40,195 nt of DNA from NCBI GenBank assembly GCA_013791745.1, contig VMTH01000169.1:1-40195 (forward strand). The letters run 5' to 3'. Positions 5,419-40,195 of this stretch are shown in pieces. Origin of the DNA: Candidatus Omnitrophota bacterium (GTDB lineage: Bacteria; CG03). Numbering within the stretch: position 1 is the stretch's first letter; each line of letters begins with the position of its first letter. The notes beneath the pieces were generated by a model. It saw only the letters and a list, made by a program, of their open reading frames with translations, was not told where the DNA came from and did no database searches. The translations under genes were made by a program, and so were the position numbers.

Positions 5419-6390
5419 ATGCTTGTGCTCGGAATTGAAACTTCCTGCGATGAAACGGCCTGCGCGATCGTAAAAGACGGTAAGAAGATATGCTCCGAAG
5501 TGGTCGCCTCTCAGATACCTTATCACCGCAGGTTCGGGGGTGTCGTGCCGGAACTGGCTTCAAGAAAACATCTTGAAGCGATAAACGCTGTTGTTGAGGA
5601 AACCCTGTTTAAGAGCGGCTTCGATATGGAGCATATAGACAGATTGGCCGTCACCGTAGGGCCGGGCCTGGCGGGAAGCCTGCTGGTGGGAATCACAGCG
5701 GCCCGTACGCTGGCGGCGTTATACGACAAGCCCGTTTTCGGGGTCAATCACATACTCGCTCATCTGTCGGTTAATTTTCTCACAGCCAACATAAGCCTGC
5801 CCTATATAGGGCTGACCGCTTCCGGCGGGCACTGCGATCTCGTCTTTGCCAAAACCCATGATGAATTCGAAATGCTCGCCCGCACAAGAGACGACGCGCC
5901 GGGCGAGGCTTTTGACAAAACGGCTAAAATGCTCGGGTTCCCCTATCCCGGCGGCGCGGAGATAGAAAAACTCGCAAAAGGGGGAAATGAGCGGGCCGTG
6001 AAATTCCCCGTACCGCGTTTTAAAGACGGTTCTGAAGATTTTTCTTTTTCCGGCATAAAAACTTTTGTTAAAAACCTGATCCAGGAAACCGCTAAAGAAA
6101 AACTTCCGGATCTGGCGGCATCTTTCCAGAACAGCGTGGCCTCTGTCTTCTCCGGTAAGATCATTGCCGCCGCCAAAAGAAAACTCTGCCAGCGCGTGCT
6201 TGTGGCAGGCGGCGTTATGGCCAATAGCTACATAATCTCGCGGCTCGAGGAAGAATGCGCGAAAAATTCCATACAGCTCTTTTATCCTGAAGCCAGGTTC
6301 TGCACCGACAACGCGGTCATGATAGCCTGCAGAGGTTTCTGGCAGAATAAATCACTGCCTCTGACACCGGCGCCGGATCTCAAAATATGA
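5419..6390 (+). CDS. tsaD: tRNA N6-adenosine threonylcarbamoyltransferase TsaD
   Basis: 323 residues, full family length (about 330). The N-terminus LVLGIETSCDETACAIV is diagnostic for the Kae1/TsaD ATPase fold. The metal-binding histidines are His111 and His115 in VNHILAHLS, the same numbers as in E. coli TsaD. TASGGHCDL, GEAFDKTAKMLGFPYPGG and VAGGVMANS are further family motifs. TsaD transfers threonylcarbamoyl to A37 of ANN-decoding tRNAs and needs TsaB and TsaE, both encoded on the other strand of this window. The gene starts one base after the previous stop and ends in an ATGA overlap with the next gene. Confidence 0.97.
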   Translation: MLVLGIETSCDETACAIVKDGKKICSEVVASQIPYHRRFGGVVPELASRKHLEAINAVVEETLFKSGFDMEHIDRLAVTVGPGLAGSLLVGITAARTLAALYDKPVFGVNHILAHLSVNFLTANISLPYIGLTASGGHCDLVFAKTHDEFEMLARTRDDAPGEAFDKTAKMLGFPYPGGAEIEKLAKGGNERAVKFPVPRFKDGSEDFSFSGIKTFVKNLIQETAKEKLPDLAASFQNSVASVFSGKIIAAAKRKLCQRVLVAGGVMANSYIISRLEEECAKNSIQLFYPEARFCTDNAVMIACRGFWQNKSLPLTPAPDLKI

Positions 6391-8110: not shown

Positions 8111-10210
8111 ATGGTAAAACGTCGGGAAAAGAAAGATTTCGGTTGGTGGCAGGCAGCGGTATTCACCTTATGGGGGATTATAGTTACTGTGAAGTTTTTT
8201 CCGTGGCATATCGGCATAATCTCAAATCTTTCACGGCTGCTGACCTTCAGCGATAAAATTTCCGGAGCCCCCGTGCCGGGAATTTTTTCCGCTTTTTTCC
8301 GCCATTTTCTAACCATCGCCGCAGCACTCGGTGTAATAACAGCCGGATATGGTTTCGGGAAGTTTTTATTTCAAAAATTCCTCAAAAATTTTAAGGAGCC
8401 GAATATGTTCTTATATCACTTCGGATTCGGCCAGGGAGCTCTCATTCTCGCACTGCTTTCCGCCGGTTATACGGGTCTATTTTATCCGGGCGTGATTTAC
8501 AGCATCCTTCTGACCGGGCTGTTCCTGTGTTTTCGATCAAAAAATGAAATACATTTCAGCGGCGCAACCAATGGGAAATTTTCTCTTTTTGAAAAAATGC
8601 TTTTTCTGGTCTTTGTATCCACCGCAGTCGTGAATCTGATAGGAGCGTTGACCCCCGAAACTTATTACGATTCCCTTGTTTACCATCTAGCCATACCGAA
8701 ATGGTGGCTGCAAAATCATAAGATCTCCGTTATCCCCTTTATCAATCAATCCTATTATCCCCTGAATATGGAAACGCTTTTCGCGGCGGTGATGTCTTTC
8801 TCAAATTCTTCCGGCGCGAAGATGATAAACTGGTTTTTCGCCATCGCCACCGGCGGTATGATTTATGAAACAGCTTTTTTACTGACAAAAAAACGGGGCA
8901 TCTCCCTTTTTTCGGCCATGATCTATTATACGACACCCCTCCTGATGATGCAGACATGGAGAACCGGAAACGAAATAGGCCAGGGCTTCTGGGAAATCCT
9001 GATGATATTCACGCTGATCAAATATCTAAAAAACCAAAACCGCCTTCTTCTGGCTCTTTCGGGCGCGGCCATGGGACTTTCCCTCGGCGCCAAACATCCC
9101 GCGGCAATATCTCTCCTTTCTGTTTCGGCGGCTTTCTGGTTATGGCATATCCTGAAAATCAAAATGCCGTTAAAATCAACCTTAAAAAACCACGCTATAT
9201 TCCTGGCTTTTGCAATATTAACATCGGGACCGTGGTACATAAGAACCTTTATCGCTACCGGCAATCCCCTTTTCCCTCAATTCGCGGGAAAAATTTCCGA
9301 TTTCCGGGGCGACCTGCGCGAAAATTTCGAAACCTTCACAACGGATCAGCCGCCCATAACACAGCCCGGGAAGATTGTAACGGCCTTATGGGATGTCACT
9401 ATGGGAAAATATCAGGGTTCTTTCCCCGGAGCCGTTTATCTTATCCTGGCCATACTTATTTTTTTGAAAGCGCCCTTGAGCAAGCGCTCGCAATTCCTTC
9501 TCCTTTATCTCATCCCCTACACTTTTCTATGGGTAACCGTGGGGGGAACTTATTTGAGGAGATTCCTTCCCGGCCTGACTTCTGTTTCTGTCCTTCTGGG
9601 AACATACCTCGCCATTGTTGACGACAGCAGAGGCGGCCTTAAAAATTTCGCGAAAACTTTCCTGCTCTTACTCATGGCATTCAATGTTTATCTTGCATTG
9701 GCGATGGTGGTCAAGGGGCACGGGGCCTTGAATTTCGTGATGGGGCAGGAAGATAAATACACTTATATCCGGCGGCCACGCATGGCTCATCCTAAATACG
9801 CGGGTGAAATTTTCCGCTATATCAACACAGCGCTTCCGGAAGATGCTGTGATACTTTTTGTGTCCGAGACAAGGCCCTTCTATGCGGAAAGGAACTATAT
9901 ATGGGGCACCGCGGTTCTGGGCAAGAATCCCATAGTTGAATGGGCGAATGATAGTGAAAATACCGAGGATTTCTACACAAAACTTAAGGACAAAAAAGTC
10001 TCTCACATTTTTTTCTCCCGGAGCGAAGAGTCCCGGCTGAAAGGATATAATATGTTCTACTGGTCAAAAAAAGGCGAGCAAATTTTCAAAAATTTTTGGG
10101 AGCGCTACATAACGCTTGAGTATCAGTCGGATTACTCATATCTTTACAAAATCACGGAAGAAAAACATATCACACCGCAAAATCCGCTGATGGATGCCGA
10201 AAATGATTAA
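8111..10210 (+). CDS. Membrane glycosyltransferase of GT-C (GT39/ArnT-like) type
   Basis: 699 residues with about 12 hydrophobic segments between residues 14 and 560, followed by a soluble C-terminal domain. The first large loop has TPETYYDSLVYHLAIPKWWL followed by SYYPLNMETLF, the arrangement seen in polyprenyl-phosphate-dependent GT-C transferases ('..DaL.YHla.Pk.yl...fPplmemly'), with an acidic Glu/Asp pair at the expected catalytic position. Such enzymes transfer a sugar from a lipid-linked donor to a glycan or protein outside the inner membrane; the substrate cannot be read from the sequence. It starts 8 bases after prs without a clear Shine-Dalgarno and overlaps the following methyltransferase gene. 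A lipid A or surface-glycan modification role is plausible. Confidence 0.75.
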   Translation: MVKRREKKDFGWWQAAVFTLWGIIVTVKFFPWHIGIISNLSRLLTFSDKISGAPVPGIFSAFFRHFLTIAAALGVITAGYGFGKFLFQKFLKNFKEPNMFLYHFGFGQGALILALLSAGYTGLFYPGVIYSILLTGLFLCFRSKNEIHFSGATNGKFSLFEKMLFLVFVSTAVVNLIGALTPETYYDSLVYHLAIPKWWLQNHKISVIPFINQSYYPLNMETLFAAVMSFSNSSGAKMINWFFAIATGGMIYETAFLLTKKRGISLFSAMIYYTTPLLMMQTWRTGNEIGQGFWEILMIFTLIKYLKNQNRLLLALSGAAMGLSLGAKHPAAISLLSVSAAFWLWHILKIKMPLKSTLKNHAIFLAFAILTSGPWYIRTFIATGNPLFPQFAGKISDFRGDLRENFETFTTDQPPITQPGKIVTALWDVTMGKYQGSFPGAVYLILAILIFLKAPLSKRSQFLLLYLIPYTFLWVTVGGTYLRRFLPGLTSVSVLLGTYLAIVDDSRGGLKNFAKTFLLLLMAFNVYLALAMVVKGHGALNFVMGQEDKYTYIRRPRMAHPKYAGEIFRYINTALPEDAVILFVSETRPFYAERNYIWGTAVLGKNPIVEWANDSENTEDFYTKLKDKKVSHIFFSRSEESRLKGYNMFYWSKKGEQIFKNFWERYITLEYQSDYSYLYKITEEKHITPQNPLMDAEND

Positions 10211-10779: not shown

Positions 10780-11103
10780 TTACTTTGGCGGCTCTGTACC
10801 CTTGATATCGTCTTCCGCGTTACCCGCCGGTGTTCCATCTGTTTTGGGCGCGTCAACAGGCTTTGAGGCTTCCGACGCGTAATTGAGCTGGGTGTCTGCA
10901 AGGACATTGGCCAGAAACTTCTCTTCTTCCTTGTCCAGATTGCCTTTTGTCTTCTTGTTGAGCATTTCCAGGATATCCACCGACATTTTAGCCTGTACCA
11001 GGTTCCTTTCCGCTTTACCGGTTGAGGGATTTGACATTTTCCCCAGATGCAGCATTACCGACTGCTGGAACATGAGCACCAACGCGAAAAATTCTGAATC
11101 CAT
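10780..11103 (-). CDS. DUF1844 domain protein
   Basis: 107 residues. Residues 1-70 match the DUF1844 pattern: FFALVLMFQQSVMLHLGKM, then the conserved 'dp.tGk...dl..Ak..iDiLemL..KTkGNL...Ee..l...l' region, seen here as TGKAERNLVQAKMSVDILEM and KTKGNLDKEEEKFL. The remainder is a low-complexity Pro/Lys/Glu-rich tail. The function of DUF1844 is unknown. It is the last gene of the minus-strand operon, has a strong GGAGGTG Shine-Dalgarno, and its ATG overlaps the gltX stop by one base. Confidence 0.9.
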   Translation of the reverse strand: MDSEFFALVLMFQQSVMLHLGKMSNPSTGKAERNLVQAKMSVDILEMLNKKTKGNLDKEEEKFLANVLADTQLNYASEASKPVDAPKTDGTPAGNAEDDIKGTEPPK

Positions 11104-12590
11104 TATTCACCTCCAGAGCCGCCGTAACGGCCGACATATCCGCCTATTCTTTTAAGCGCTTCGTTTTTTCCGAGAAAAGCGCACATATGAAAAAGAGACG
11201 GCCCCTTTGACCGGCCGGAAAGCGCCCACCTCAGGGGATGGAAAATATCTTTTGTCTTGATGTCTTCCGCTTTGGCGAAGGCCCTGACTTGTTCCTCTAT
11301 CTTCTCGCCGCTGAAAGGTTCCGCGCTCTCAAGCGCTTTCGCCAGCTTTGCCACGATATGCACCGTATCGGCGGCCCTGCTCTTAACATCGGCGTCGTCT
11401 TCAAAATCACTATCAAACAGGAACCCGATCTTTTCGGGTATTTCCGTGAGTTTCTTTATCTTTTCTTTTTCCATCTCAATCGCGGCCGTGAGCCTCTCTT
11501 CCGGATATTTATCCATACCGGCTTCTTTAATAACAGCCGCGGCGCGGCGCCTGATATCAGCGCCTGAAAGGTTTTTTATGTGCTGGGCGTTGAGCCACAG
11601 AAGTTTATCATTATCGAAAATCGCGGCCGACTGACCGCATCTCGAGAGAGAGAATTCCCTTTCAAGCTCATCCGGAGAAAAAATATTCCGGCTGTCTTTC
11701 GTGGCCCATCCCAGAAGCGCGAGATAATTCACGATCGCCTCCCTGATGAAACCCTCATCGGCGTATTCCAGCAGGGAACGGGCCCCGCTCCTTTTAGATA
11801 ATCTGGAGCCGTCAATATCAAGAATCATTGTAAGGTGCGCGAAACGCGGCACTTCCCAGCCGAGAGCCTCATAAAGCATTATCTGTTTGGGCGTGTTTGA
11901 AATATGATCTTCCCCTCTTATCACATCGCTTATCTTCATCATATGATCGTCAACAACACAGGCAAAATTATATATCGGTAACCCGCCGGAACGCATGATC
12001 ACGAAATCCCCGATCTCATCAGACCGCACGCTGATATCGCCTCTTATGCCGTCGTGAAAACTCACAGTCCGGCCTTCTTCCACCCTGAACCTGATTACCG
12101 GCTCTTTGCCTTCCGCCATAAGCTGACTTATCTGAGCATGACTGAGATCCCGGCATTTTCCCGAATAACCACCCCTGCCCTTCGATTCAAGCTGGGATTT
12201 TCTCTCAGCGGCGAGCTCCTCCTGAGAGCAAAAACAGCGATAGGCTCTTTTCGCGCTCAACAGAGTATCAACAGCCTGAGTGTAAAAATTCCTTCTCTGG
12301 GCCTGAAAATACGGGCCGCAGGGGCCGACCGAGGTCATCTCGTCTTCGCCTTTTTCATTTTTTACAATGAGCGGGCCCTCATCCCATTTGATCCCCATGA
12401 ACTTCAGCCCCTTTATTATAGACCTGACAGACGGCACGGTGGAGCGAGCCTCATCGGTGTCTTCGATCCTGAGGATGAATTTTCCGCCGCGGCCGCGGGC
12501 ATAGAGCCAGTTATACAGCGCGGTGCGCGCGCTGCCTATGTGAAAATACCCCGTAGGCGACGGCGCGAAACGCACTCTTATATCATTCAT
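11103..12590 (-). CDS. gltX: Glutamyl-tRNA synthetase
   Basis: 495 residues, a class I aminoacyl-tRNA synthetase charging tRNA-Glu. The HIGH-type motif is in APSPTGYFHIGSARTALYNW near the N-terminus, and the KMSKS equivalent is RLSKRSGARS. GGLPIYNFACVVDDHMMKISDVIRGEDHISNTPKQ is highly conserved in the family. Whether the enzyme is discriminating or also charges tRNA-Gln cannot be decided without alignment; no GlnRS or GatCAB gene is visible in the window. The start overlaps the hisG stop by 4 bases (ATGA), so the two are co-translated. Confidence 0.97.
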   Translation of the reverse strand: MNDIRVRFAPSPTGYFHIGSARTALYNWLYARGRGGKFILRIEDTDEARSTVPSVRSIIKGLKFMGIKWDEGPLIVKNEKGEDEMTSVGPCGPYFQAQRRNFYTQAVDTLLSAKRAYRCFCSQEELAAERKSQLESKGRGGYSGKCRDLSHAQISQLMAEGKEPVIRFRVEEGRTVSFHDGIRGDISVRSDEIGDFVIMRSGGLPIYNFACVVDDHMMKISDVIRGEDHISNTPKQIMLYEALGWEVPRFAHLTMILDIDGSRLSKRSGARSLLEYADEGFIREAIVNYLALLGWATKDSRNIFSPDELEREFSLSRCGQSAAIFDNDKLLWLNAQHIKNLSGADIRRRAAAVIKEAGMDKYPEERLTAAIEMEKEKIKKLTEIPEKIGFLFDSDFEDDADVKSRAADTVHIVAKLAKALESAEPFSGEKIEEQVRAFAKAEDIKTKDIFHPLRWALSGRSKGPSLFHMCAFLGKNEALKRIGGYVGRYGGSGGE

Positions 12591-13459
12591 CGTATAACTT
12601 TCGTCAGCGGGTACTCTATAATATCGGCGGCTCCGGATTTTTTCAGAAGTGGAATTATGTTTCTGGCCGTCACTTCCATCAGAACAACCTCCATGGCCAT
12701 ACCGCCGCCGAAGGCCAGTGACGATATTGTGGGGTTGCTGTACTTCTTAAGGATCTGCTCAACTTTCTTAACGCATCCGGCGGAAACGTTCATCTTCAAT
12801 CCCACCAGGCCTTCCGCCTTGAGCGCGCCTTTGAGGAGCAGCGCTATGTCTTCCATCTTGGATTTTTTCCAGGAGTCGCTGTACGCGGACGGGGATGATA
12901 TAAATCGCGTGGTGGAAACCATGACCTCATCTATGACCCTCAGGTTGTTTCTTCTGATGGATTCTCCCGTTTCGGTGAGCTCGCATATAGCGTCGGCAAG
13001 CGTGCCGGCCTTGGTCTCGGTAGCGCCCCAGGAAAAATCTATTTTCGCTCTCACCCCTTTCTTCGCGAGCCATTTTTTGAGCACACTCATGAGCTCCGTG
13101 GAAATCCGTTTTCCCGAAAGCTGGGACACTTTCTTGATTTTAGAGTCATTTCTGACGGCTATCACCCATTTGGCGGGGCCGAACGAACTTTTGGAATAAT
13201 TGAGTTCGCATATCTCTTTGACCTTGAGGCCGGATTCCAGTATCCAGTCAAAGCCCGCCAGGCCGCAATCGACTATGCCGTCGGTGATATACTTCGCCAT
13301 TTCCTGCGGGCGTATCAGCAGCACTTCTATCTCATCATCATCGCAGGCGGGGCTGTACGACCTTGTTTTGGCGGAAATATTGAAACCGGCTTTGCCAAAG
13401 AGCGCTATCGTTGAATTTTCCAGGGATCCTTTCGGTATCCCAAGTTTTAATTTTTTCAT
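12587..13459 (-). CDS. hisG: ATP phosphoribosyltransferase, long form
   Basis: 290 residues from ATG 13459; a GTG two codons upstream is part of the GGAGGTG Shine-Dalgarno and is unlikely to be the start. It catalyses the first step of histidine synthesis, PRPP plus ATP. The N-terminus LKLGIPKGSLENSTIALFGKAG and IVDCGLAGFDWILE are HisG motifs. The C-terminal regulatory (HisG_C) part, about residues 210-290, has LKMNVSAGCVKKVEQIL, which marks the long, self-sufficient form that does not need HisZ. It lies between tsaB-rimI and gltX with no other his genes in the window. Confidence 0.95.
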   Translation of the reverse strand: MKKLKLGIPKGSLENSTIALFGKAGFNISAKTRSYSPACDDDEIEVLLIRPQEMAKYITDGIVDCGLAGFDWILESGLKVKEICELNYSKSSFGPAKWVIAVRNDSKIKKVSQLSGKRISTELMSVLKKWLAKKGVRAKIDFSWGATETKAGTLADAICELTETGESIRRNNLRVIDEVMVSTTRFISSPSAYSDSWKKSKMEDIALLLKGALKAEGLVGLKMNVSAGCVKKVEQILKKYSNPTISSLAFGGGMAMEVVLMEVTARNIIPLLKKSGAADIIEYPLTKVIR

Positions 13460-13484
13460 ATTCACCTCCGTTTTATAAAGTGCA

Positions 13485-15557
13485 TTATTGCAGTTTTCGC
13501 TCGTAAATAAAAGCGTCTTCTTTCGGATAGCCGAAATAATCCTTGCGCTCGGCTATTCTGGTAAAACCCGCTTTCTCAAGCAATTTATGCGCGGCTTGCC
13601 CGGAAACGCGGACTTCAAGATAGGCCGATTTGCAGCCCAGGCTTGATGCTTTTTTCAAAATCTCATACAAAAGGCAGCTGCCGACGCCCTTGTTGCACTC
13701 AGCCGGAGCCACAGCAAAATTGATTATGTGCGCTTTTTCCGAAACGACCCAGAACACCGCATATGCCATAAGAGACATCTTGTCACGCCGCTGCCAGCGT
13801 CCGGAAAGCGTGTAAAGTTTTGACACGGGAATAGCCAGTTCCTCCTTGAACATCTGGCGCCGCCAGGGCCTTTCGGAAGAAGCCTCTTCTATATTCATGA
13901 CTTCAGGAAGATCTTTAATACCGAAAGGCCTTACCATATATTCCAGATTCTCAACACTCATTTTTTTCAGCGGATCTACCGGAAGTCTCTTGTCCATCTT
14001 TTTAAATTCGTCAGCTTCAGGCGTTTTATCCTCAGAACTTTCCTGCACGGTGTGATCAGATATTTCTTCCGTTATATCCTCGTCTGCTTTTACAGGAGTT
14101 GGTTCACGGGGGGGCGCTTCCTCTGCGGTTTCTTCCGACGAGGAAGACGGCACGCCCGCGGCTTCAGGCTCAGGCGCGATCACCACGGCGACAGGCGGCT
14201 CTTCAATCTCTTCAGGCGCGGCGTCTAAGTCCGCCGTCTCAAGCGCGGCCTCTTCCGCCAAGGCCCGCTTACGGTTGATCTCTTTGATGCTTTCTTCCAA
14301 CGTCTTTATTTCTTCCTCTTTCCGGCGGCGTTTATCGGAAAGCGCGCCCAGCATCTCTTCTTCTTTCTTTATTCTCTCAAACACTTCTTCAAAACGGGAA
14401 GTGGCGAGCTCGTCGATCTGGCGGCTGTAATTGCCCTTTTCCTCTTTCAGATTCTCCACTTCCTGCCTGAGCTCATCACGCTGCTGGATATAGATCTCCA
14501 CCTCCCTCGGTATCTCAGGCGGAAGTTTTTTAATCTTCTCATATTTCGCCTCCCTCAAGGCCAGCTCCCGCGAGCAATCCCGCAAACGGCTTTTTAAATC
14601 TTCAAGTTTCTTTTCATATTCCTCTATTTTTTTCTCTTTCGCCGCAATTGATTCGGTATATGCCGTTCTTTTGGCGTTGAGTATTGACAGTTCATCCATG
14701 GAAGATGCCAATTCCCCGCGGATAGCGGCGGCCGTCTCTGAGAGCTGAGCGATATCTTCTATCTCCTGCTCCTTCTCCCTTTTTACCTTTTCAAGGTTTT
14801 TGATATCTTCTCTGACCCCTTCTTTTTTTGCCACAAGCTGGGATATTTTGACCATTTCATCCTCCAATTTTTCCTGCCATTTGGCTTCCGCCTGTTTGCG
14901 GCTTATGTATATCGGCACTATTTCCGAAGCCCTCGATGCCGCCTCACCATTTGCCGCCAACACAAGATTATCAACAGCGGCGGAAAGCAGAATCATATTC
15001 TCCAGTATATCCGTAGCTTTGAGCTTTAAAAATTTCAGGTTTTTCTTCTTCAGGATATCTTCATCACGCTGCGATATTCTGCCGCACAAACACAGTTTTC
15101 CGGGGAGCGACAGCGCATAATCAAGCCATTCGTCTATTTCCACGGCGTAAATATCCGCATTGGCGGTGGCGCCGATGACGCCGCCGGGATAAACAGCTCC
15201 GTAGACGAAGCCGTTCCCCGTATCCAGCATAGCGGCCGCCGTTGCACCCGTGGCCGCCGTACCCGCGGCGGCCACATCAAGCGACCTCATGGCTATGAGC
15301 GGGATCCTGAGCTGCTGTGCGAGCACACGAGCGAAAGTGACGCCGACCCTGACGCCGGTAAAGGAACCCGGGCCTATTTCAACAAATATTTTTCTAAACG
15401 TTGAAAGGGGGAACTCGTCTTTCACTTTCGCGAAACATTCAAAGAATCCGTCCAGATCTCGCTTGCCGAAATCCGTGTGATAAAAACTTCGGCGGCTCCC
15501 CATCACAGCGGCGATGGCATACTCGCCCATGGAAGTGCTGACATATAATTCGCTCAT
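13485..15557 (-). CDS. TsaB - coiled coil - RimI fusion protein
   Basis: 690 residues in one uninterrupted frame. Residues 1-225 are TsaB (YeaZ): EIGPGSFTGVRVGVTFARVLA near 60-80 and a C-terminal VPIYISRKQAE. Residues 226-440 are a Lys/Glu-rich coiled coil. Residues 441-535 are an acidic, Pro/Ser-rich linker. Residues 540-690 are a GNAT acetyltransferase of RimI type: VRPFGIKDLPEVMNIEE, RPWRRQMFKEEL, the acetyl-CoA loop NKGVGSCLL and a terminal DYFGYPKEDAFIYERKL. TsaB is the partner of TsaD in t6A synthesis; RimI acetylates ribosomal protein S18. TsaB and RimI genes are often adjacent and sometimes directly fused; a roughly 310-residue coil plus linker between them is unusual. Its start overlaps the tsaE stop (ATGA). 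Confidence 0.92.
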   Translation of the reverse strand: MSELYVSTSMGEYAIAAVMGSRRSFYHTDFGKRDLDGFFECFAKVKDEFPLSTFRKIFVEIGPGSFTGVRVGVTFARVLAQQLRIPLIAMRSLDVAAAGTAATGATAAAMLDTGNGFVYGAVYPGGVIGATANADIYAVEIDEWLDYALSLPGKLCLCGRISQRDEDILKKKNLKFLKLKATDILENMILLSAAVDNLVLAANGEAASRASEIVPIYISRKQAEAKWQEKLEDEMVKISQLVAKKEGVREDIKNLEKVKREKEQEIEDIAQLSETAAAIRGELASSMDELSILNAKRTAYTESIAAKEKKIEEYEKKLEDLKSRLRDCSRELALREAKYEKIKKLPPEIPREVEIYIQQRDELRQEVENLKEEKGNYSRQIDELATSRFEEVFERIKKEEEMLGALSDKRRRKEEEIKTLEESIKEINRKRALAEEAALETADLDAAPEEIEEPPVAVVIAPEPEAAGVPSSSSEETAEEAPPREPTPVKADEDITEEISDHTVQESSEDKTPEADEFKKMDKRLPVDPLKKMSVENLEYMVRPFGIKDLPEVMNIEEASSERPWRRQMFKEELAIPVSKLYTLSGRWQRRDKMSLMAYAVFWVVSEKAHIINFAVAPAECNKGVGSCLLYEILKKASSLGCKSAYLEVRVSGQAAHKLLEKAGFTRIAERKDYFGYPKEDAFIYERKLQ

Positions 15558-16036
15558 TCCGATATTTCCGCTGCGGCGCTCTCAAATATCCGGATCTCTC
15601 TGTTATCTCCGGATAAAGAATTTATTCTGACGAGATAAAAATCCTTAAAAAATTCGAGGCCTGTTTCCGGCCATTCCACTATGAAAACCGCTTGTTCCGC
15701 GAAAAGTTCCTCGATGCCTATGTCAAAAATTTCTCCGCTCTCTTTGATCCTGTAAAAATCCATGTGATACACCGGGGGGGTACCGTCGTATCTGTTGATG
15801 AGCTTGTAACTCGGACTGCTGACATCGGATTCAGAGCCGAAGCAGGAAACAATGCCCCGGGCGAACTCGGTCTTGCCCGACCCCAGATCTCCCGCCAGCA
15901 GAACAACATCGCCGCTTTTAAGCGTAGCGGCAAAACCCGAAGCTATCGCCCTGGTTTCCTCGGGAGAGCCGCTCTCGAACACAGCGCTCTCTTTAAGAGA
16001 AATGCCTGAATCCTTTATAATCCGTTCTGTTCCCAT
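15554..16036 (-). CDS. tsaE: tRNA threonylcarbamoyladenosine synthesis ATPase TsaE
   Basis: 160 residues from ATG 16036 (an in-frame TTG lies one codon upstream). Walker A is LLAGDLGSGKTEFARGIV; SPSYKLINRYDG and YHMDFYRI are the conserved TsaE motifs; the acidic IFDIGIEELF and VEWPE follow. TsaE is the small ATPase that resets the TsaB-TsaD complex in t6A synthesis. The start lies 44 bases inside the thiL gene, and the gene ends in an ATGA overlap with tsaB-rimI, so these three are a translationally coupled unit. Confidence 0.93.
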   Translation of the reverse strand: MGTERIIKDSGISLKESAVFESGSPEETRAIASGFAATLKSGDVVLLAGDLGSGKTEFARGIVSCFGSESDVSSPSYKLINRYDGTPPVYHMDFYRIKESGEIFDIGIEELFAEQAVFIVEWPETGLEFFKDFYLVRINSLSGDNREIRIFESAAAEISE

Positions 16037-16997
16037 CAAGAAAAACCCCTTCCCCCTCGCTGACAGTTCCTACTCTGAAAACGGGGACTTTTATTTTAGC
16101 AAACTTTTCTCTCGCAGACGCGCCCACAAGATAATAATCCTCACCGCCCACAAGAGCCATCCTCAGCGCTTTTTTTCTCCCGAGACAGAAATCGACAAGT
16201 TCTTTTTTGAGCGGCACCAGGGCGCTCTCAATATTCACCGCCACACCGCTCTGGCGCGCTATGCTCCGGCAGGAATCTATAAGCCCGTCGCTGGAATCCA
16301 TTAAGGCCGAGACAAAAGGGAATAATTTTTCGCCGGCGCCTGAAAAAATATCAGGATATAAAAAATTTTTGACGAGAAAATTTTTCCCGCTCTCTCCGGC
16401 TTTCAACAGCTCCAGCCCCGCCGAGGAAAGTCCGGGATAGGAAGTTATGAACAGGATATCGCCTTTTTTCGCGCCTGAGCGCCTGATATTATATCCGGCC
16501 GGGCCTATCGCGCAAACAGAGATATAAAGGCCGCGGCTGGCGACTATATCCCCCCCCTCCACTTTGAGGCGCCATTTCTTACAGGCCTTTTTGATACCGC
16601 CGTATAGAGCAAAAAATTTCTCGTCGCTCACTTTTCGGGGAAGGCCCATTGATATCAGCACACTTTCCGCCGCGCTTCCCATGGCGGCGATGTCAGAAAC
16701 GGCGCCTGTCACCGCCCTGTATCCTATAGAATCATCCGGAACCAGACTGTTGAAATGCACGCCTTCCGAGTACGAATCCACCGAGACCGCCATGCGGCCG
16801 CCTCCCGCGGCTTCTGAGTCCGCCGTCTTAGGCGCGATCACAGCGGCATCATCACCTATATCGCCGGCCAGGCCCGCGCGGCGCAAATAAAGGAAAAGCT
16901 CGCCGAGCAGGCGATCTTCCCTGTTAAACGCGCGAGCTGTCTTATTTTTTTGTTTTATAATTATCTGAATACGGGCCCGATTATCAAAAAAGGGCAC
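15993..16997 (-). CDS. thiL: Thiamine-monophosphate kinase
   Basis: 334 residues from GTG 16997; the start is uncertain because no Shine-Dalgarno precedes it and the first 20 or so residues are extra compared with the family. ThiL phosphorylates thiamine monophosphate to the diphosphate. Motifs are GDIGDDAAVI (Mg-ATP binding, about residues 45-54), VSVDSYSEGVHF, GYRAVTGAVSDIAAMG, LKVEGGDIV and DSSDGLIDSCRSIA. The thiL-tsaE-tsaB-rimI order is a recurrent bacterial cluster. Upstream lies an 8-base tandem repeat (17017-17032). Confidence 0.92.
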   Translation of the reverse strand: MPFFDNRARIQIIIKQKNKTARAFNREDRLLGELFLYLRRAGLAGDIGDDAAVIAPKTADSEAAGGGRMAVSVDSYSEGVHFNSLVPDDSIGYRAVTGAVSDIAAMGSAAESVLISMGLPRKVSDEKFFALYGGIKKACKKWRLKVEGGDIVASRGLYISVCAIGPAGYNIRRSGAKKGDILFITSYPGLSSAGLELLKAGESGKNFLVKNFLYPDIFSGAGEKLFPFVSALMDSSDGLIDSCRSIARQSGVAVNIESALVPLKKELVDFCLGRKKALRMALVGGEDYYLVGASAREKFAKIKVPVFRVGTVSEGEGVFLDGNRTDYKGFRHFS

Positions 16998-24757: not shown

Positions 24758-25213
24758 TTAAATCTTTCGGCTTTTTCTCGCGCTCAGGACAAGCTCCCTG
24801 ATCTCCGGCGGCAATTGTTTATCCTGCCATTTCCTTTCCACCTCTGTTGATTTGTCCGAATTTTTGACGGCTTTCAGAGCATACCACGCCGCAGCCAGTG
24901 AATGGTCGACCATGTGGGCGGTCGCCACAGCGTGACCGACGGCACGAGCCACCGCAATTGCAGTCTTGTTCGAGGACTCATTTGCCACCGCAATCGCGCC
25001 TAATGACGCATTCCTCGCATCCCCCACCGAGGCCTCTCCCTGCCTCCACTCTTCAGCCACATTTAGCGCGCTTATAAGCCGCCCGTCTATTGTTTCACCG
25101 GATAGATTCAATACATGCCCCGCGCAATCAGAGGCCCATTTAATTAACTGGCAATGCCACTCCTTTTTCAGAGACCCGCCGCGATGAACCGCGACAAAAC
25201 GCCTGTCCCTCAT
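24758..25213 (-). CDS. Imm-5-like putative immunity protein
   Basis: 151 residues. MRDRRFVAVHRGGSL at the start, CQLIKWASDCAGHVL, GHAVATAHMVDHSLAAAWYALKAV and a C-terminal WQDKQLPPEIRELVL match the family generally annotated as 'putative immunity protein' (Imm-5-like). Such proteins are alanine-rich and mostly helical, and the family name comes from toxin-immunity neighbourhoods; a protective function here is not shown and no toxin gene is adjacent. GGAGG sits 8 bases before the ATG. It is separated from the next upstream gene by 47 bases and probably shares its promoter. Confidence 0.75.
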   Translation of the reverse strand: MRDRRFVAVHRGGSLKKEWHCQLIKWASDCAGHVLNLSGETIDGRLISALNVAEEWRQGEASVGDARNASLGAIAVANESSNKTAIAVARAVGHAVATAHMVDHSLAAAWYALKAVKNSDKSTEVERKWQDKQLPPEIRELVLSARKSRKI

Positions 25214-34014: not shown

Positions 34015-37000
34015 TTATCTTATTATCGCTATCTTTCCTCTGTCTCTGCCCTGTCCGGCCGTTTCAACGATGTAGAAATACACGCCGGAGGCGATTCTGC
34101 CGCCGTTGGAATTTTTCAAATCCCAGGTGATTATGTTTTCTCCGTCCCATGAAAGATCGGAGTCGCCGGGACCAAAGGCCTTTTTGAGGCTCTGTGAAGC
34201 TGACCACACCTGCTCGCCTGTGACCGTATATATCCTGACCTCGCCGTTGACAGTGGTTCCGGCGGCAACCTCGGCCGCGGTGCCGGGCACGCACACCTTG
34301 ATGCTCAAGCTGTTAGTGCGGCAGGGATTCGGGAACACATAGGCCTTAAAGGCATCCTCATAGGGATTTGACACGATCGTCACGACAGCGGAACGCATAA
34401 TATACTCTCCGGAATTATCTTCCAGATGCAGATCATAGGAACCCGCCGGGGCCGCCGGATCTGCCGAAATTACAAACTGCACAGTCAGCGTGGTTGTAGA
34501 GCAGGGGGCAATGGTACTGCCCGTAATGAAATAACCCTCTGACACATTGTCCAGTTTGATAATATCTAACGCCTCGTCATTAAACTTGTCAAGGCCTGTG
34601 CCGGTTATGGTCAGAGTTATCGTGTTACCGGGACTTGCCGTGCCGGATACCGTGACAGAACTGACATTAACCGTGCTGCTTGATGAATTCACAGTAAAAG
34701 CATTCGCGAGAGTGCCGTAGCCGTTGTCGGCATTTGTCGCAGTCACATTCCTTGCCCCGGTGGCCGCTCCGCCGTCTATAACGACATTCCATGCCGTTAG
34801 CTGAGTGGAACTCACTCTTGTAATGGAACTTACGCTGATTCCGGTCGGGTCGAATGTAACAGTAACGCCGTCCTTAAAGCCTGTTCCGGTCACTGTTATA
34901 GACGGTATTGTCGTACCCTGCTCACCGCTGGCGGGAGAAACAGAAGTCACCGTCGGATTGACGACCGTTGCGGCCGGGACCGCTGAAAGCTTGAACACGG
35001 CAAAATACGAGAAATGACTCGTCTGAACCGTTATCGTGTTATTTTCCTCGTCTATAACCGGCGCGCTGTCTACGAGATTCCACTCCGCGTTGGATGAAGC
35101 CGTGGACGAATAGACATAAAGCAAATCGGTCGCCGGATGTGTGGAAATAGACGAATCGTATTCAAAAGTCAGTTCCACCGTCTGGCTTGCCGCTATTGAG
35201 GCGAGAGGCCCGCTGACAAGGCGCGCCTTGACCTCATAAAGAGCGCTGGCCGCGGCTGTCGCAAGCTCCGGCCCGTTAAAAGACGGCATCGCCGCGCCGT
35301 AGCGCGCGGTGTAGAAACTGTCTCTTGTGGTGGCATAGGCCTGGATAGCGGCCGCTGACCTCACACCCGATGCCGAAGGCGCGGGCGCGGGAACTGATTC
35401 GCCCGGAAAAGCGGTCTTGCCGACTGTGACCTTCACATCCGAACCGGTATCCATACTCCCCGTCGGCACATAGACCGAGCTGTCATCGCCGTTGCCTATG
35501 TCAACGGTTCCGCCGAAAGTGGGGTTGATGTTCTTCTGCGCGTAATTATCCCACGCTTTGTAGAATGTGTAGGCGAAAGGATAATCGCCGCTTCCGGTGT
35601 AATCAGCGGGCGACTGCTTATTGCCCTTCAAATCTGTACCCTGAAAGTGATAAGCTATGGAATTCTGCGCGCCTGAAAAAGTGAATACAGCGCTTATGTC
35701 CGTCTTATTCAAAGACATAGCGGCGCTGTCAAAAGCGCCGGCAACCAATGTTCCCGATGAACAATAAACACCGTCCAGAATAATCACATTTGAAACCTTG
35801 CTTTCGCGGAGAGGCTCGGAAGCAAAGGCTTCTATCGTGATGGTGTTGGAGGATTTCTTTACCCAGCTGATAAAACTCGGAGCGTTGTCCTGAAAGATGA
35901 AATTATATGTCTGGGCGTTCTGCGTTATCATCTGCGATTCCGGCGCCATGAACAGAGCGTGACCTTCCATCGGCAGAACAACGGTGTAAGAGACATTTTT
36001 GCGCAAACCGGGGATTCTATAGCTTTCTATTTCCCCCGTGCCGCTGTTGGTGATGAGCTCACCGAAAACAAGGTCTGTCATGTCCTGATTTGAAGCCACA
36101 ACTTCTTCAACTTCCGTGTTTTTGACCTTGCTCCCGTCGGCCTTGGTGAAAACGCCCGACAGCGCGGATCCCGTGGAAAGAGTGATGGTTCCCATTGCGA
36201 CAGTTCCCGACGATATTTCTATACCTTTAATAAATTCCGAGCAGAAACCTTTCACCACCGCGCGCATGTTATATCTGCCGTCACTGAGGCCCATAATGGT
36301 AAAAGAAGATTTCCATCTGCCCGGCCCTGCATCGGGCCCTTCCCAGAAGGGCGCTCTGCTAATCGTCTGATAGCCGTCAAAAGGATCTGAGTATCTTTCG
36401 CCGGCGGACTGGACAACAATAAAAGCGCCGTAAGTTTTAAGGCCGGCCTTTTCATCACCACCGAATCCCTGCGTCAGTATTTCCATATCATCCTTGGATG
36501 AAAGCAGAGGCGTCCTCACAACGCCCGTTATCCCCTTGGTCGGAAGCGTCACTGTCAAAACCGTATTGGTGCTTCCTACAAGAACATTTTTTTTGACAGC
36601 CGGAGCGTAATAAGATTCCTCTTCCCACCTGTCCCACACCTCAGGGCGAGGCGCGGCCGTCAGTTTCCAGTAAACGACTTCCGGAGCAAGCCCCTTCAGC
36701 ACGAATTTTCCCTCAGAATCTGTCCTGAAATCGGACCAGCCGTCCGTCATTCCGAGCATGGGATCGGCCTCAACTTTCACATTAGGGACGGGATTACCCG
36801 CGACATCCTTCACGATGCCCTTAATATTTCTGCCTTTCTTTAATTCTATCGTACCCAGATTAACATCGGCGGTTGAATCAGGGACAATGACGCCCACTAT
36901 CTTCTTATGCACATAGGCGTAAGAAAGATCGCTCTTGCTGTATTGCACTTCCACTTCATAAGTGCCCGCCGGCAGATTCTTCAATTTGAAAGCGCCGGTC

Positions 37001-40000
37001 GTGGAACTGATTTTAATGTCAGCAGGTGCCCATGAGTCATTATAATCGCGCGTCTCCCTGTGCGTTCCTTCCTGCCGGGGAATGCCCTGGCATCTCACCC
37101 TGACACCGTCATAAATCACGCTTCCCGTGTCTTTATCTCTCAGCACCCCGGTGATATTGGCGCCTTTTTTAAGCATTAATGTGCCCAGATCAATCGTTTT
37201 TGTGGAACCGGCGGGGATCTCAAACGGCACAATGGCATTCTTATAACTCTGGTCCCACACGCGCACCATGGCATTGTACTTGCCGGGATATATGGAAGTA
37301 AAAGAGAAACTCTGCGTCGGGCTGTTAAGCGTGCTCGGCATGCTCGCGATACCGAAATTGCTGTAATCCACAAAATCAATGGACTTACCGGGGGCAACCG
37401 GCATGTAATGTTCCCTGCTCACCAGCTCCATCCAGTAATGGCCCTCGACGCCGCTCACTGACCTCTGCACCGTGCCTTTGACCTTGACACCGTCAATCAG
37501 CGTCAGCGGATCAAGATTTTTGGTTTCACCCGTCGCAAGCGGCACCATTGGCGTGAGCGACGCAAGGTCGGCGTTGGGGCTGAACTGCCCGCCGAACATA
37601 GCCGCCAGCGCGCCTCCGTCGTTAGTGTTGTCAAAATAAAGCGGCGGCATAATAATATAACTGCCTTCGGCCAGGCCGCGGATCGTGTAAGAGGCCACCG
37701 TGGGAGACCAGACTTCCAGCGAAGCTTTAAGACGGGAATCTATAATATTCCCGCCCTGCTGCATCTGTTTGACAGACATCGCCATCACCGCTAAATTCAT
37801 GGGCGGGCCTTCCAGCTGTGTTCCGGTGTGGTCATAGATATAATAAGTCTGGGTGCTGGCATTATAAACATCATTCCACGTCGGATATTTTGCGGAATTG
37901 AGCACAAGGGTTCCGCTTATCCGGCCGGCCGGTTTCAGGAAAATGTCCCCGAGCGGATAATTCTCGCCATTGTTGACGCGCGCCCTCTTCTGCACCATGC
38001 CATAATTACCCAGAGGCATGCCGTTCACATCCGTCTCCATAATCGTGACAACATATTCCCCCGTCCTGAGTTCGTCAATAGAAAAATTGCCGCTTGCGTC
38101 AGGATGGAGGGCGGCATTGTTGCTAGGCATGCCCTGATTCCAGAGCATTTCACAGCTTATGGTTATAGACATTGAATCCACCGGAGCGCTATACTGGTCA
38201 AGAATCCTTCCGTTTATTGAACCGGAGAAGGGATTAAAAGTGATGGTCTTCGTGCTTCCGGCGTCAATTTTCTGCCAGCGGCCTTCCTGTTCAAAACCGT
38301 TGTTAAGGCCCCAAATATTCATCTGGTACTGCCTGCCCGCTGTCAGGCCCGCGATAACATAAGGCATTTGCACAGAGCTGAATGAACTTATAGGTACAGA
38401 AAAACCTATATTTTTTCCCTGATGAGTGGCCTCGTCAAAAGCGTCAATATTCAGCCATATTTTTTTCACGCCGCCGTCGTCCCATGACTGATTCAAATAA
38501 ATCGCGTATGTTGACGGTGACCAGTTGATGACCATGTTGCCGCTTATCGTCACGCCTTCATCCATTACCACGGCTTCGGCTTTCGTCATAAGAAGGCTCG
38601 TCGCGCCCACGGAAACCGTCGTGTCGGTTGATGCGTAGAACTGGCTATTGAAACTCAGAAAGTAAGTCGTGTTCGGAGTAACATTCCAGACGGTAAAAGG
38701 CATTGTTGTGGAATCAATGCCTATATCCCACTGATTCTGATCCCATTCCCTCTGCCCCCAGGCCCAGACCGAGTTATCGGCCGTGTGAGCGTTGACATCA
38801 ACATATCTCTGCTGGAGCTCGCTGATGTTGGTGCTCATTATAACGATGTATCCTTTTATATCCACCGCCGGATTCAGGACTATCGCCATCTGATAAAATG
38901 TCGCGCCGGCTCCGAGAACGCCGCCCAAAGCTGCAGGTTTAAGAACCACAGTCGTTGATATTGACACATACTTATTCGCATTTGCTCTGATGTTGTAAGT
39001 CCCTTCCACCAGAGGAAGAACGCACACTGCGCTTGAAGCCCCGCTTGAAATCCTGAAATTAGACCAGCCGCCGTCAGCGCTGTTTATGCTCCACGCGTCA
39101 AGATTCCCCCACAATTCGGTGACAGTGTTTCCCCACTGATCAGTGTAAGGCGTAAACGGCGCGAGTAGCTGTATCGTGGCCGTGATTTTAACGCCGGTGC
39201 CGAGCTCAAAATTCTGCCAGGCCTCATCACCCGAAAGAGAAACATTCTGCTCGCGTTTAGTGGTGTAACCCGCCTTACGGGCTTCCATAAAATAAGTGCC
39301 CTCGGCCATACCTCTCATCTTATATACGCCATTCTCATCTGTATAAGTGTGATTCCAGCTGTACTGATTCCCCGCGTTCACCTCGGCAAACGCCGCGGGC
39401 CCGCCGCCGGATTCACTGGGGAGCGTGACCGTGCCCCTGATAACGCCCACCCCTGACACCGTTACAATCGTGGAAGTGGAATCTCCCAGCAGCAAAGTCT
39501 GCGGTGAAAAATACGGCGCCGCGACTTCAACAAAAATTTTACATTCGCCGTTCAGGGGAATTCTCTTCAGCCAGTCCCATGAAAAATTAACAGAAACCGT
39601 CCTGGTCAGCGTCTTGGTTGAACCGTCGCGCAAAGCGAAATCTTCCTGGGGTATCCAGTCCCAGAAATCATAATCCGAATTCGCCTGAATGGCGTCAAGC
39701 TCCTGATAACTGAGCTTTAATGCCTCTTTTGCTTCCAATGTGAGCGAATTAAAATAACCCCACCAGTCATTACCGTTAATATTGTAGTAAGAGCTTGAGG
39801 TTGAAATCGCTGTTCCGGGAATAAAATGCGGAGCGTCATTCTCCCACATGACCTGTTCCCATCTGAAAGTGTCCGCTATGCCGTTGTTATTGGTATCGGC
39901 CACAATTCTGAGCTGAGCGCCGCCGGAGGTCTGTATTGACGGGTTTGTCGACACCAGCACATAATTGATTCTTAGTTCATCGTCGATATTATCTCCGTTT

Positions 40001-40195
40001 GGTGATATTGTAGCATCACCACCGTCGGAAGTGACGGAAATAGATTCAAATGAAACGGGAATTCCTGCTCCTGTGTCATAATAAGTGTAACCGCCTGTCC
40101 CGGCAGTCATGTAATCGTAATTATATTCAAATGTTACCGAACTCGAATCTAACGCCGTGACTCTGATGACTGTTTCTACACCCTCGTTCGAAAGA
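34015..40195 (-). CDS. Giant modular surface protein, 5' end outside the window
   Basis: About 2,059 residues are visible, and the frame stays open to the window edge. From the N-terminal side: a 'SPNGDNIDDELRI' calcium-loop-like segment; about ten carboxypeptidase-regulatory or prealbumin-like beta repeats (starts such as GVIRGTVTLP, GSINGRILDQ, ANITGVLRDK, RNIKGIVKDV, KGITGVVRTP); an Ig-like segment; a ZU5-like region ending TVQTSHFSYFAVF; an IPT/TIG domain (VTSVSPASGEQGTTIPSITV); and a FlgD/sorting-like C-terminus (YVFPNPCRTN, VRIYTVTGEQVW, GGRIASGVYFY, GKIAIIR). The C-terminus resembles outer-surface export signals. It is probably an adhesin or envelope scaffold. It is the first visible gene of a four-gene operon. 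Confidence 0.85.
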   Translation of the reverse strand, partial: LSNEGVETVIRVTALDSSSVTFEYNYDYMTAGTGGYTYYDTGAGIPVSFESISVTSDGGDATISPNGDNIDDELRINYVLVSTNPSIQTSGGAQLRIVADTNNNGIADTFRWEQVMWENDAPHFIPGTAISTSSSYYNINGNDWWGYFNSLTLEAKEALKLSYQELDAIQANSDYDFWDWIPQEDFALRDGSTKTLTRTVSVNFSWDWLKRIPLNGECKIFVEVAAPYFSPQTLLLGDSTSTIVTVSGVGVIRGTVTLPSESGGGPAAFAEVNAGNQYSWNHTYTDENGVYKMRGMAEGTYFMEARKAGYTTKREQNVSLSGDEAWQNFELGTGVKITATIQLLAPFTPYTDQWGNTVTELWGNLDAWSINSADGGWSNFRISSGASSAVCVLPLVEGTYNIRANANKYVSISTTVVLKPAALGGVLGAGATFYQMAIVLNPAVDIKGYIVIMSTNISELQQRYVDVNAHTADNSVWAWGQREWDQNQWDIGIDSTTMPFTVWNVTPNTTYFLSFNSQFYASTDTTVSVGATSLLMTKAEAVVMDEGVTISGNMVINWSPSTYAIYLNQSWDDGGVKKIWLNIDAFDEATHQGKNIGFSVPISSFSSVQMPYVIAGLTAGRQYQMNIWGLNNGFEQEGRWQKIDAGSTKTITFNPFSGSINGRILDQYSAPVDSMSITISCEMLWNQGMPSNNAALHPDASGNFSIDELRTGEYVVTIMETDVNGMPLGNYGMVQKRARVNNGENYPLGDIFLKPAGRISGTLVLNSAKYPTWNDVYNASTQTYYIYDHTGTQLEGPPMNLAVMAMSVKQMQQGGNIIDSRLKASLEVWSPTVASYTIRGLAEGSYIIMPPLYFDNTNDGGALAAMFGGQFSPNADLASLTPMVPLATGETKNLDPLTLIDGVKVKGTVQRSVSGVEGHYWMELVSREHYMPVAPGKSIDFVDYSNFGIASMPSTLNSPTQSFSFTSIYPGKYNAMVRVWDQSYKNAIVPFEIPAGSTKTIDLGTLMLKKGANITGVLRDKDTGSVIYDGVRVRCQGIPRQEGTHRETRDYNDSWAPADIKISSTTGAFKLKNLPAGTYEVEVQYSKSDLSYAYVHKKIVGVIVPDSTADVNLGTIELKKGRNIKGIVKDVAGNPVPNVKVEADPMLGMTDGWSDFRTDSEGKFVLKGLAPEVVYWKLTAAPRPEVWDRWEEESYYAPAVKKNVLVGSTNTVLTVTLPTKGITGVVRTPLLSSKDDMEILTQGFGGDEKAGLKTYGAFIVVQSAGERYSDPFDGYQTISRAPFWEGPDAGPGRWKSSFTIMGLSDGRYNMRAVVKGFCSEFIKGIEISSGTVAMGTITLSTGSALSGVFTKADGSKVKNTEVEEVVASNQDMTDLVFGELITNSGTGEIESYRIPGLRKNVSYTVVLPMEGHALFMAPESQMITQNAQTYNFIFQDNAPSFISWVKKSSNTITIEAFASEPLRESKVSNVIILDGVYCSSGTLVAGAFDSAAMSLNKTDISAVFTFSGAQNSIAYHFQGTDLKGNKQSPADYTGSGDYPFAYTFYKAWDNYAQKNINPTFGGTVDIGNGDDSSVYVPTGSMDTGSDVKVTVGKTAFPGESVPAPAPSASGVRSAAAIQAYATTRDSFYTARYGAAMPSFNGPELATAAASALYEVKARLVSGPLASIAASQTVELTFEYDSSISTHPATDLLYVYSSTASSNAEWNLVDSAPVIDEENNTITVQTSHFSYFAVFKLSAVPAATVVNPTVTSVSPASGEQGTTIPSITVTGTGFKDGVTVTFDPTGISVSSITRVSSTQLTAWNVVIDGGAATGARNVTATNADNGYGTLANAFTVNSSSSTVNVSSVTVSGTASPGNTITLTITGTGLDKFNDEALDIIKLDNVSEGYFITGSTIAPCSTTTLTVQFVISADPAAPAGSYDLHLEDNSGEYIMRSAVVTIVSNPYEDAFKAYVFPNPCRTNSLSIKVCVPGTAAEVAAGTTVNGEVRIYTVTGEQVWSASQSLKKAFGPGDSDLSWDGENIITWDLKNSNGGRIASGVYFYIVETAGQGRDRGKIAIIR

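Follow-up and report, generated by a model that had tools for sequence, protein, structure and literature searches.

A TsaB–RimI fusion protein with a long predicted coiled-coil arm and altered active-site residues, conserved within one bacterial family

The stretch of DNA analysed here, referred to as the window, is 40,195 nucleotides long and carries on its minus strand the genes thiL, tsaE, a fusion gene, hisG and gltX, in that order. The fusion gene is a single open frame running from 15557 to 13485 (−), which encodes 690 amino acids from an ATG start and from which internal stops are absent. Its N-terminal part is matched by the NCBIfam model for TsaB (TIGR03725, residues 51–218, 74.8 bits vs. 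a cut-off of 69.3) and its C-terminal part by that for RimI (TIGR01575, residues 549–684, 91.4 bits vs. a cut-off of 86.4), the latter with a GNAT fold and with RimI among the best PDB matches. With both profiles above their cut-offs, the layout proposed in an earlier note on this DNA, namely TsaB, coil, acidic linker and RimI in one frame, is borne out. The parts of the protein and the neighbouring genes are as follows.

14904..15557, minus strand: TsaB domain, residues 1–218 (TIGR03725 above cut-off; TsaB/YeaZ matches in the PDB)
14871..14915, minus strand: TsaB C-tail, residues ~215–229 (PIYISRKQAEAKWQE), running unbroken into the coil
14526..14900, minus strand: coil arm A, residues 220–344 (helix in the models; length and periodicity)
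14508..14525, minus strand: tip or turn LPPEIP, residues 345–350 (helix break in both models; conserved)
14229..14507, minus strand: coil arm B, residues 351–443 (models, alignment and conservation profile)
13938..14228, minus strand: acidic Pro/Ser/Ala-rich linker, predicted to be disordered, residues 444–540 (pLDDT below 50)
13485..13937, minus strand: RimI (GNAT) domain, residues 541–690 plus the stop (TIGR01575; PDB 9mto, 5isv and 2cnm)
15554..16039, minus strand: tsaE (PF02367, 117.9 bits; TIGR00150, 101.1 bits), with a 4-bp overlap with the start of the fusion gene
15993..16997, minus strand: thiL, upstream, in one cluster with the fusion gene (TIGR01379, 220.5 bits)
12587..13465, minus strand: hisG, downstream (PF01634/TIGR00070), the fixed neighbour for gene-order comparison
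11103..12590, minus strand: gltX, downstream (TIGR00464, 530.8 bits), used for the species tree
5419..6390, plus strand: tsaD, encoding the partner of TsaB (PF00814, 281 bits)

The earlier note had placed tsaE in the operon of the fusion gene and tsaD within the window; both placements hold, but tsaD lies ~8 kb off, on the opposite strand and outside the operon. TsaC is encoded elsewhere in the window genome (G000), and TsaC, TsaD and TsaE are all present in it. The fusion is the sole TsaB of G000, the only other match to TIGR03725 being tsaD. Elsewhere in the window, a 699-aa frame without a Pfam match (8111–10210, +) lies near the tsaD cluster, a 2031-aa frame with carboxypeptidase-regulatory-like repeats (34015–40110, −) adjoins a FecR-domain protein, and an Imm-5-like putative immunity protein (24758–25213, −; PF21805, 120.7 bits) is found beside a small putative hydrolase (PF20603).

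Relatives were grouped as f1, the family of the window (G000–G006), f2 (G007), f3 (G008 and G014), f4–f6 (G009, G010, G011, G012, G013 and G015) and f190, a family outside the phylum. The TsaB–RimI fusion is real. Full versions of it occur in four other f1 genomes, G002 and G003 from the window genus and G005 and G006 from other genera (three genera in total), the latter two sharing 42–44% identity with the window protein across its full length; in G001 the frame runs through TsaB plus coil and is intact up to the contig end. An intact frame in all these genomes rules out the sequencing join or frameshift that the earlier note had raised as a danger. The compared genomes do look like fragmented (metagenome) assemblies, which would suit an artificial fusion created by sequencing error or mis-assembly; however, the identical join is present in several genomes at 42–96% identity, and two of the fusion-bearing relatives are independently published MAG contigs (PHAM01000073.1 and PEUP01000024.1, labelled Elusimicrobia), so we regard the chance of such an artifact as negligible. 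Each f1 member carrying the fusion has it as its sole TsaB and, where the contig includes the RimI end, as its sole RimI above the cut-off, and in G004 (f1, 63% complete) neither TsaB nor RimI was found. Separate tsaB and rimI genes were not found in the window genus or family and occur only in other families (f3, with a coil on rimI, and f190, without one). This lineage-conserved layout in a single frame also supports the idea, put forward in the same note, of a tether between the two heads. Among the matches listed from ~370 genomes outside the phylum, none spans the coil, and no coil-bearing form was seen there. Long-frame RimIs from other phyla (G141, G152, G164, G373, G090 and G291) were set aside, as their extra frame is apparently stop-free noise with no coil.

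The TsaB domain has a diverged N-lobe and a conserved IGPGSFTGVRVG motif. Over window positions 15400–15557 we also observed that the f1 N-lobe has lost two motifs typical of TsaB, AIDT(S/T)T and HS(E/D), which are kept in f3–f6 and f190. Judging from its family and pathway, the TsaB head of the fusion would be expected to have TsaD and TsaE as its normal partners. In the complexes studied so far, the C-tail of TsaB promotes tRNA binding and reaches the tRNA/TsaE side (PMC11648230), and an arm continuing from this tail should therefore leave the t6A complex near that side. Matched by eye, the tail of the window protein is like the Trp/Lys-rich stretch at the C-terminus of Thermotoga maritima and Aquifex aeolicus TsaB (WEKKKRG vs. 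KWQEK; PMC11648230), but it extends into a coil of ~220 residues rather than ending.

The coiled coil itself is recovered by prediction, helix or coil spanning residues ~220–443 (~224 residues) with heptad-like periodicity and, in the models, a break at 345–349. These models are single chains based on three close sequences: AlphaFold2 run on the full-length protein gave helices at 220–344, 350–386 and 389–443 at a mean pLDDT of 49, with the domains poorly modelled, and the coil modelled alone reached a pLDDT of 86 and a pTM of 0.50. The hydrophobic periodicity of ~3.5 residues was reached by 10/500 shuffles for arm A and 2/500 for arm B; when arm A of G005 or of G006 was shuffled, 0/500 reached it. 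Counted from the Lys-Trp in the tail up to the LPP of the tip, arm A measures exactly 120 residues in G000, G005 and G006, which represent three genera, with no indel; arm B of G005 has a one-heptad insert (7 aa) that is without a counterpart in arm A. The LPPEIP tip is kept in G000–G003 and G006 and reads LPPDIP in G005, and each arm bears a conserved patch, MDELSILNAKRTAYTES at residues 287–303 in arm A and ATSRFEEVFERIKKEEE at residues 385–401 in arm B. Across the f1 genera the coil is homologous (z 22–30 vs. heptad-preserving shuffles). The f1 coil compared with the f2 and f3 coils gave z of 0.1–2.2, not above heptad-preserving shuffles, and we dropped homology between them, leaving position and layout as the only link. 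Matches of the coil to SMC and KIF21A in Pfam/NCBIfam were likewise discounted as generic coil similarity, being far below the cut-offs.

As to how this coil is arranged, Foldseek matched its model to many antiparallel hairpins (EmrA, SMC arms, HP0958/CT398, RipA and EnvC) over 170–200 residues, at E-values of 0.02 and above. The predicted shape of residues 220–443 is thus like that of EmrA, the SMC arms, HP0958/CT398 and the RipA N-domain, a resemblance in shape only. Further, the conservation profile of the coil mirrors best about residue 342.5, adjoining the Pro-rich break (r 0.56), and in a hairpin the patches at 287–303 and 385–401 would face each other; since this mirror test was post hoc and made on few sequences, the hairpin is only favoured by it. 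On the models and the mirrored conservation, we favour a coil that would form an intramolecular antiparallel hairpin arm issuing from the TsaB C-tail and would not be primarily a dimeriser. The suggestion in the earlier note that the coil may dimerise is accordingly unsupported in the form in which it was made. A coil acting mainly as a parallel homodimer, and crosslinking two TsaB heads (and thus TsaD–TsaB units) as well as two RimI heads, would agree with the good heptad periodicity, with the known TsaD2B2 tetramers (PMC11648230) and with the seven-residue insert in arm B of G005, which a parallel coil would readily accommodate in register, and it also profits from the limitation of the models to single chains and from the coil pTM of 0.50. 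We nevertheless consider it unlikely, because family members retain the LPPEIP helix break, the model of a single chain resembles hairpins and the conserved patches mirror around the tip.

Between the putative hairpin and the RimI domain lie the 97 residues of the linker (444–540), with a net charge of −19. Among relatives the linker varies from ~64 to 160 aa with an identity of 13–38% outside G002, neither its length nor its sequence being conserved. The linkers of the near-identical G000 and G002 (window 13938–14228; L031 ~1870–2300) differ in length by ~60 residues, and that of G002 contains repeated APETADSEAA-like units.

In RimI of E. coli and Salmonella, Glu103 is described as the proton acceptor and Tyr115 as the proton donor (passages in PMC3347575), and Tyr129 and Tyr130 as contacting the peptide (passages in PMC3851700). 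In a comparison set of 54 RimIs sampled beyond the phylum, which leans towards high-scoring ones, Asn108, Tyr115 and Tyr130 were each invariant (54/54), and position 103 was Glu in 51. The RimI domain of the window keeps Glu103 as E648 and the Tyr129 equivalent as Y674; Asn108 is replaced by G653, Tyr115 by L660 and Tyr130 by F675, and in the CoA loop Q/R76 is replaced by C621, a loss of Q/R common to G000 and G002. All three of the invariant positions are changed in every f1 member having the RimI domain (Gly, Ser or Ala at 108; Leu in the window genus and Phe in G005 and G006 at 115; Phe at 130), and in all of them Glu103 is kept, as is the GxG loop of f1 RimI. Compared with the stand-alone RimI of Salmonella and E. 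coli (PDB 2cnm and 5isv), the domain shares the GNAT fold, the TIGR01575 equivalog, Glu103 and Trp27, but differs in these three replacements and in being linked through an arm to TsaB. It therefore belongs to RimI by its sequence-model match and is without two defining catalytic features of that family (Tyr115; Asn108 together with Tyr130). These losses make classical RimI activity doubtful, and the name of S18 acetyltransferase given to this end of the protein in the earlier note is not supported as it stood. Human Patt1 is modelled with Phe in the place of Tyr115 (passages in PMC3851700), so that activity may survive a change from Tyr to Phe; in the window genus the residue is Leu. In RimI of f3, positions 115, 130 and 103 are occupied by Val, Phe and Ile, respectively, that of f2 has all catalytic residues intact, and from these sequences the erosion of the active site seems to have occurred separately in f1 and f3. 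The N-terminus of S18, which in the window genus starts MEKK or MKKK without Ala, was dropped as proof of lost function, since Ala is present in only ~10/29 of the outgroup control genomes with RimI and is not diagnostic. S18 starts without Ala in most of the sampled RimI-bearing genomes (L149–L162 and L181–L210), and the S18 label of RimI thus seems loose across bacteria.

Within the fusion protein, it is the RimI domain that is under the strongest purifying selection. Identity between genera is 66–69% for RimI, 35% for TsaB and ~40% for the coil, and dN/dS was 0.026 and 0.07 for RimI, 0.11–0.12 for the coil and 0.36 and 0.21 for TsaB, the dS between G000 and G002 being a value that few changes underlie. 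Such conservation, together with the low dN/dS, contradicts the notion of a RimI end in decay, left over from a lost acetyltransferase and retained only because it is attached to the end of tsaB, an essential gene; the loss of active-site residues in f1 and f3 and the absence of RimI between tsaB and hisG in f4–f6 would fit such decay, which we hold to be very improbable. Since the domain has lost invariant residues and yet varies least of all parts of the protein, repurposing is the most likely explanation.

Gene order at this locus differs among the relatives. The closest RimI from beyond the phylum is that of f190, where the genes run thiL-tsaE-tsaB-rimI-hisG-gltX, tsaB and rimI are distinct and a coil is absent; TsaB of f190 ends in YIRRAEAEVKWEEKERLKKP, matching YISRKQAEAKWQEK of the window, where the protein continues into the coil. 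In f3, a separate tsaB overlaps by 14 bp (ATGCAAAACATTGA) with a gene for coil, linker and RimI. The f2 contig starts inside the coil and continues with RimI, hisG and gltX, the tsaB side lying beyond it. At the edge of this contig (L079, G007:C57, 1–120), an in-frame TAG is present ~41 bases from the end, with coil-like sequence on either side; it may be a genuine stop or an error at the contig end. The coil–RimI genes of f3 and f2 share with the window the coil, the acidic linker and RimI before hisG-gltX; in f3 tsaB is a separate gene, and neither coil resembles that of the window more closely than heptad shuffles do. In f4–f6 (L140–L146) the order is tsaE-tsaB-hisG-gltX without RimI between, and no RimI above the cut-off was found in the genomes of these families. 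In the GltX tree f1 groups with f2 (99/97) and f3 is placed among f4–f6, and on these placements coil–RimI is most simply ancestral to the phylum, with losses in f4 and f5/f6. HisG places f2 differently from the GltX tree, and transfer may be an alternative source of coil–RimI. In the RimI tree, f1, f2 and f3 form a group without firm support (95/46), and f190 stands next to it (98/92). Compared at this one locus, the relatives may be read as a series from separate genes (f190) through coil–rimI (f3) to the full fusion (f1).

Fusions of TsaB (YeaZ) with RimI are reported for Bordetella and Mycobacterium leprae (PMC4926160), and a YeaZ–RimI–YgjD triple fusion for Coriobacterium glomerans (PMC3571937). 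Like the window protein, they have TsaB followed by RimI in one chain, but the passages of these papers that describe them mention no coil or long linker. Direct fusions in other phyla, L074 (G042), L069 (G209) and L070 (G340), are without the coil and keep Tyr115, unlike the window. No paper that combines TsaB with a coiled coil and t6A turned up in the library searched. Direct TsaB–RimI fusions are thus already known; new here are the long coil with its conservation, the coil–RimI intermediate and the disappearance of active-site residues from a strongly constrained domain.

Keeping these published and newly seen direct fusions in mind, the protein could be an ordinary bifunctional fusion in which RimI still acetylates N-termini, with coil plus linker serving only as a long spacer. 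This is consistent with the retention of Glu103 and the GxG loop in f1, with a RimI score above the equivalog cut-off, with the presence of every catalytic residue in f2 and with the strength of the purifying selection. However, every f1 member having the domain deviates at the three positions that are invariant (54/54) in other RimIs, the window genus has Leu at the position of the general acid, Q/R of the CoA loop is lost in G000 and G002, f3 is without Glu103 as well, and the fixed length of arm A and the conserved patches of the coil exceed what a spacer needs. We give this explanation a minor, if appreciable, share of the probability.

The reading we prefer, with a probability of about 0.5, is that of a two-headed t6A protein with a hairpin arm, a leash and a repurposed or chemically altered RimI module. 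The TsaB head, the only TsaB of the cell, would pair with TsaD and TsaE; its C-tail would extend as a long helix, turn at LPPEIP and fold back, forming an antiparallel coiled-coil arm ~13 nm long (modelled with moderate confidence), and the freely varying acidic linker would tether the RimI-fold domain away from the t6A complex. There, this domain may bind the N-terminus of a protein or a ribosomal surface, or may act as an acetyltransferase of altered chemistry. The retention of Glu103 in f1, the Phe in the place of Tyr115 in Patt1 and the complete set of catalytic residues in f2 weigh against such a repurposing. M. tuberculosis RimI is described as acetylating, in vitro, N-terminal peptides of several neighbouring gene products and not the folded TsaB–TsaD complex (passages in PMC4926160), which makes acetylation within the complex a weaker idea.

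More tentatively, the ~13-nm hairpin arm might end in a non-acetylating pseudo-acetyltransferase that docks the t6A complex onto ribosomes or nascent N-termini, with active-site loss separate in two families. We consider this doubtful; if true, it would be a case of a pseudo-acetyltransferase connecting tRNA modification with translation. RimI and t6A genes adjoin or are fused in many bacteria, and the reason for this is unsettled. A conserved arm tethering the two, together with an eroded acetyltransferase site, suggests that they may stay connected through physical binding and not through acetylation, and the gene orders of the relatives (separate, coil–RimI and fused) offer a path for how the fusion arose.
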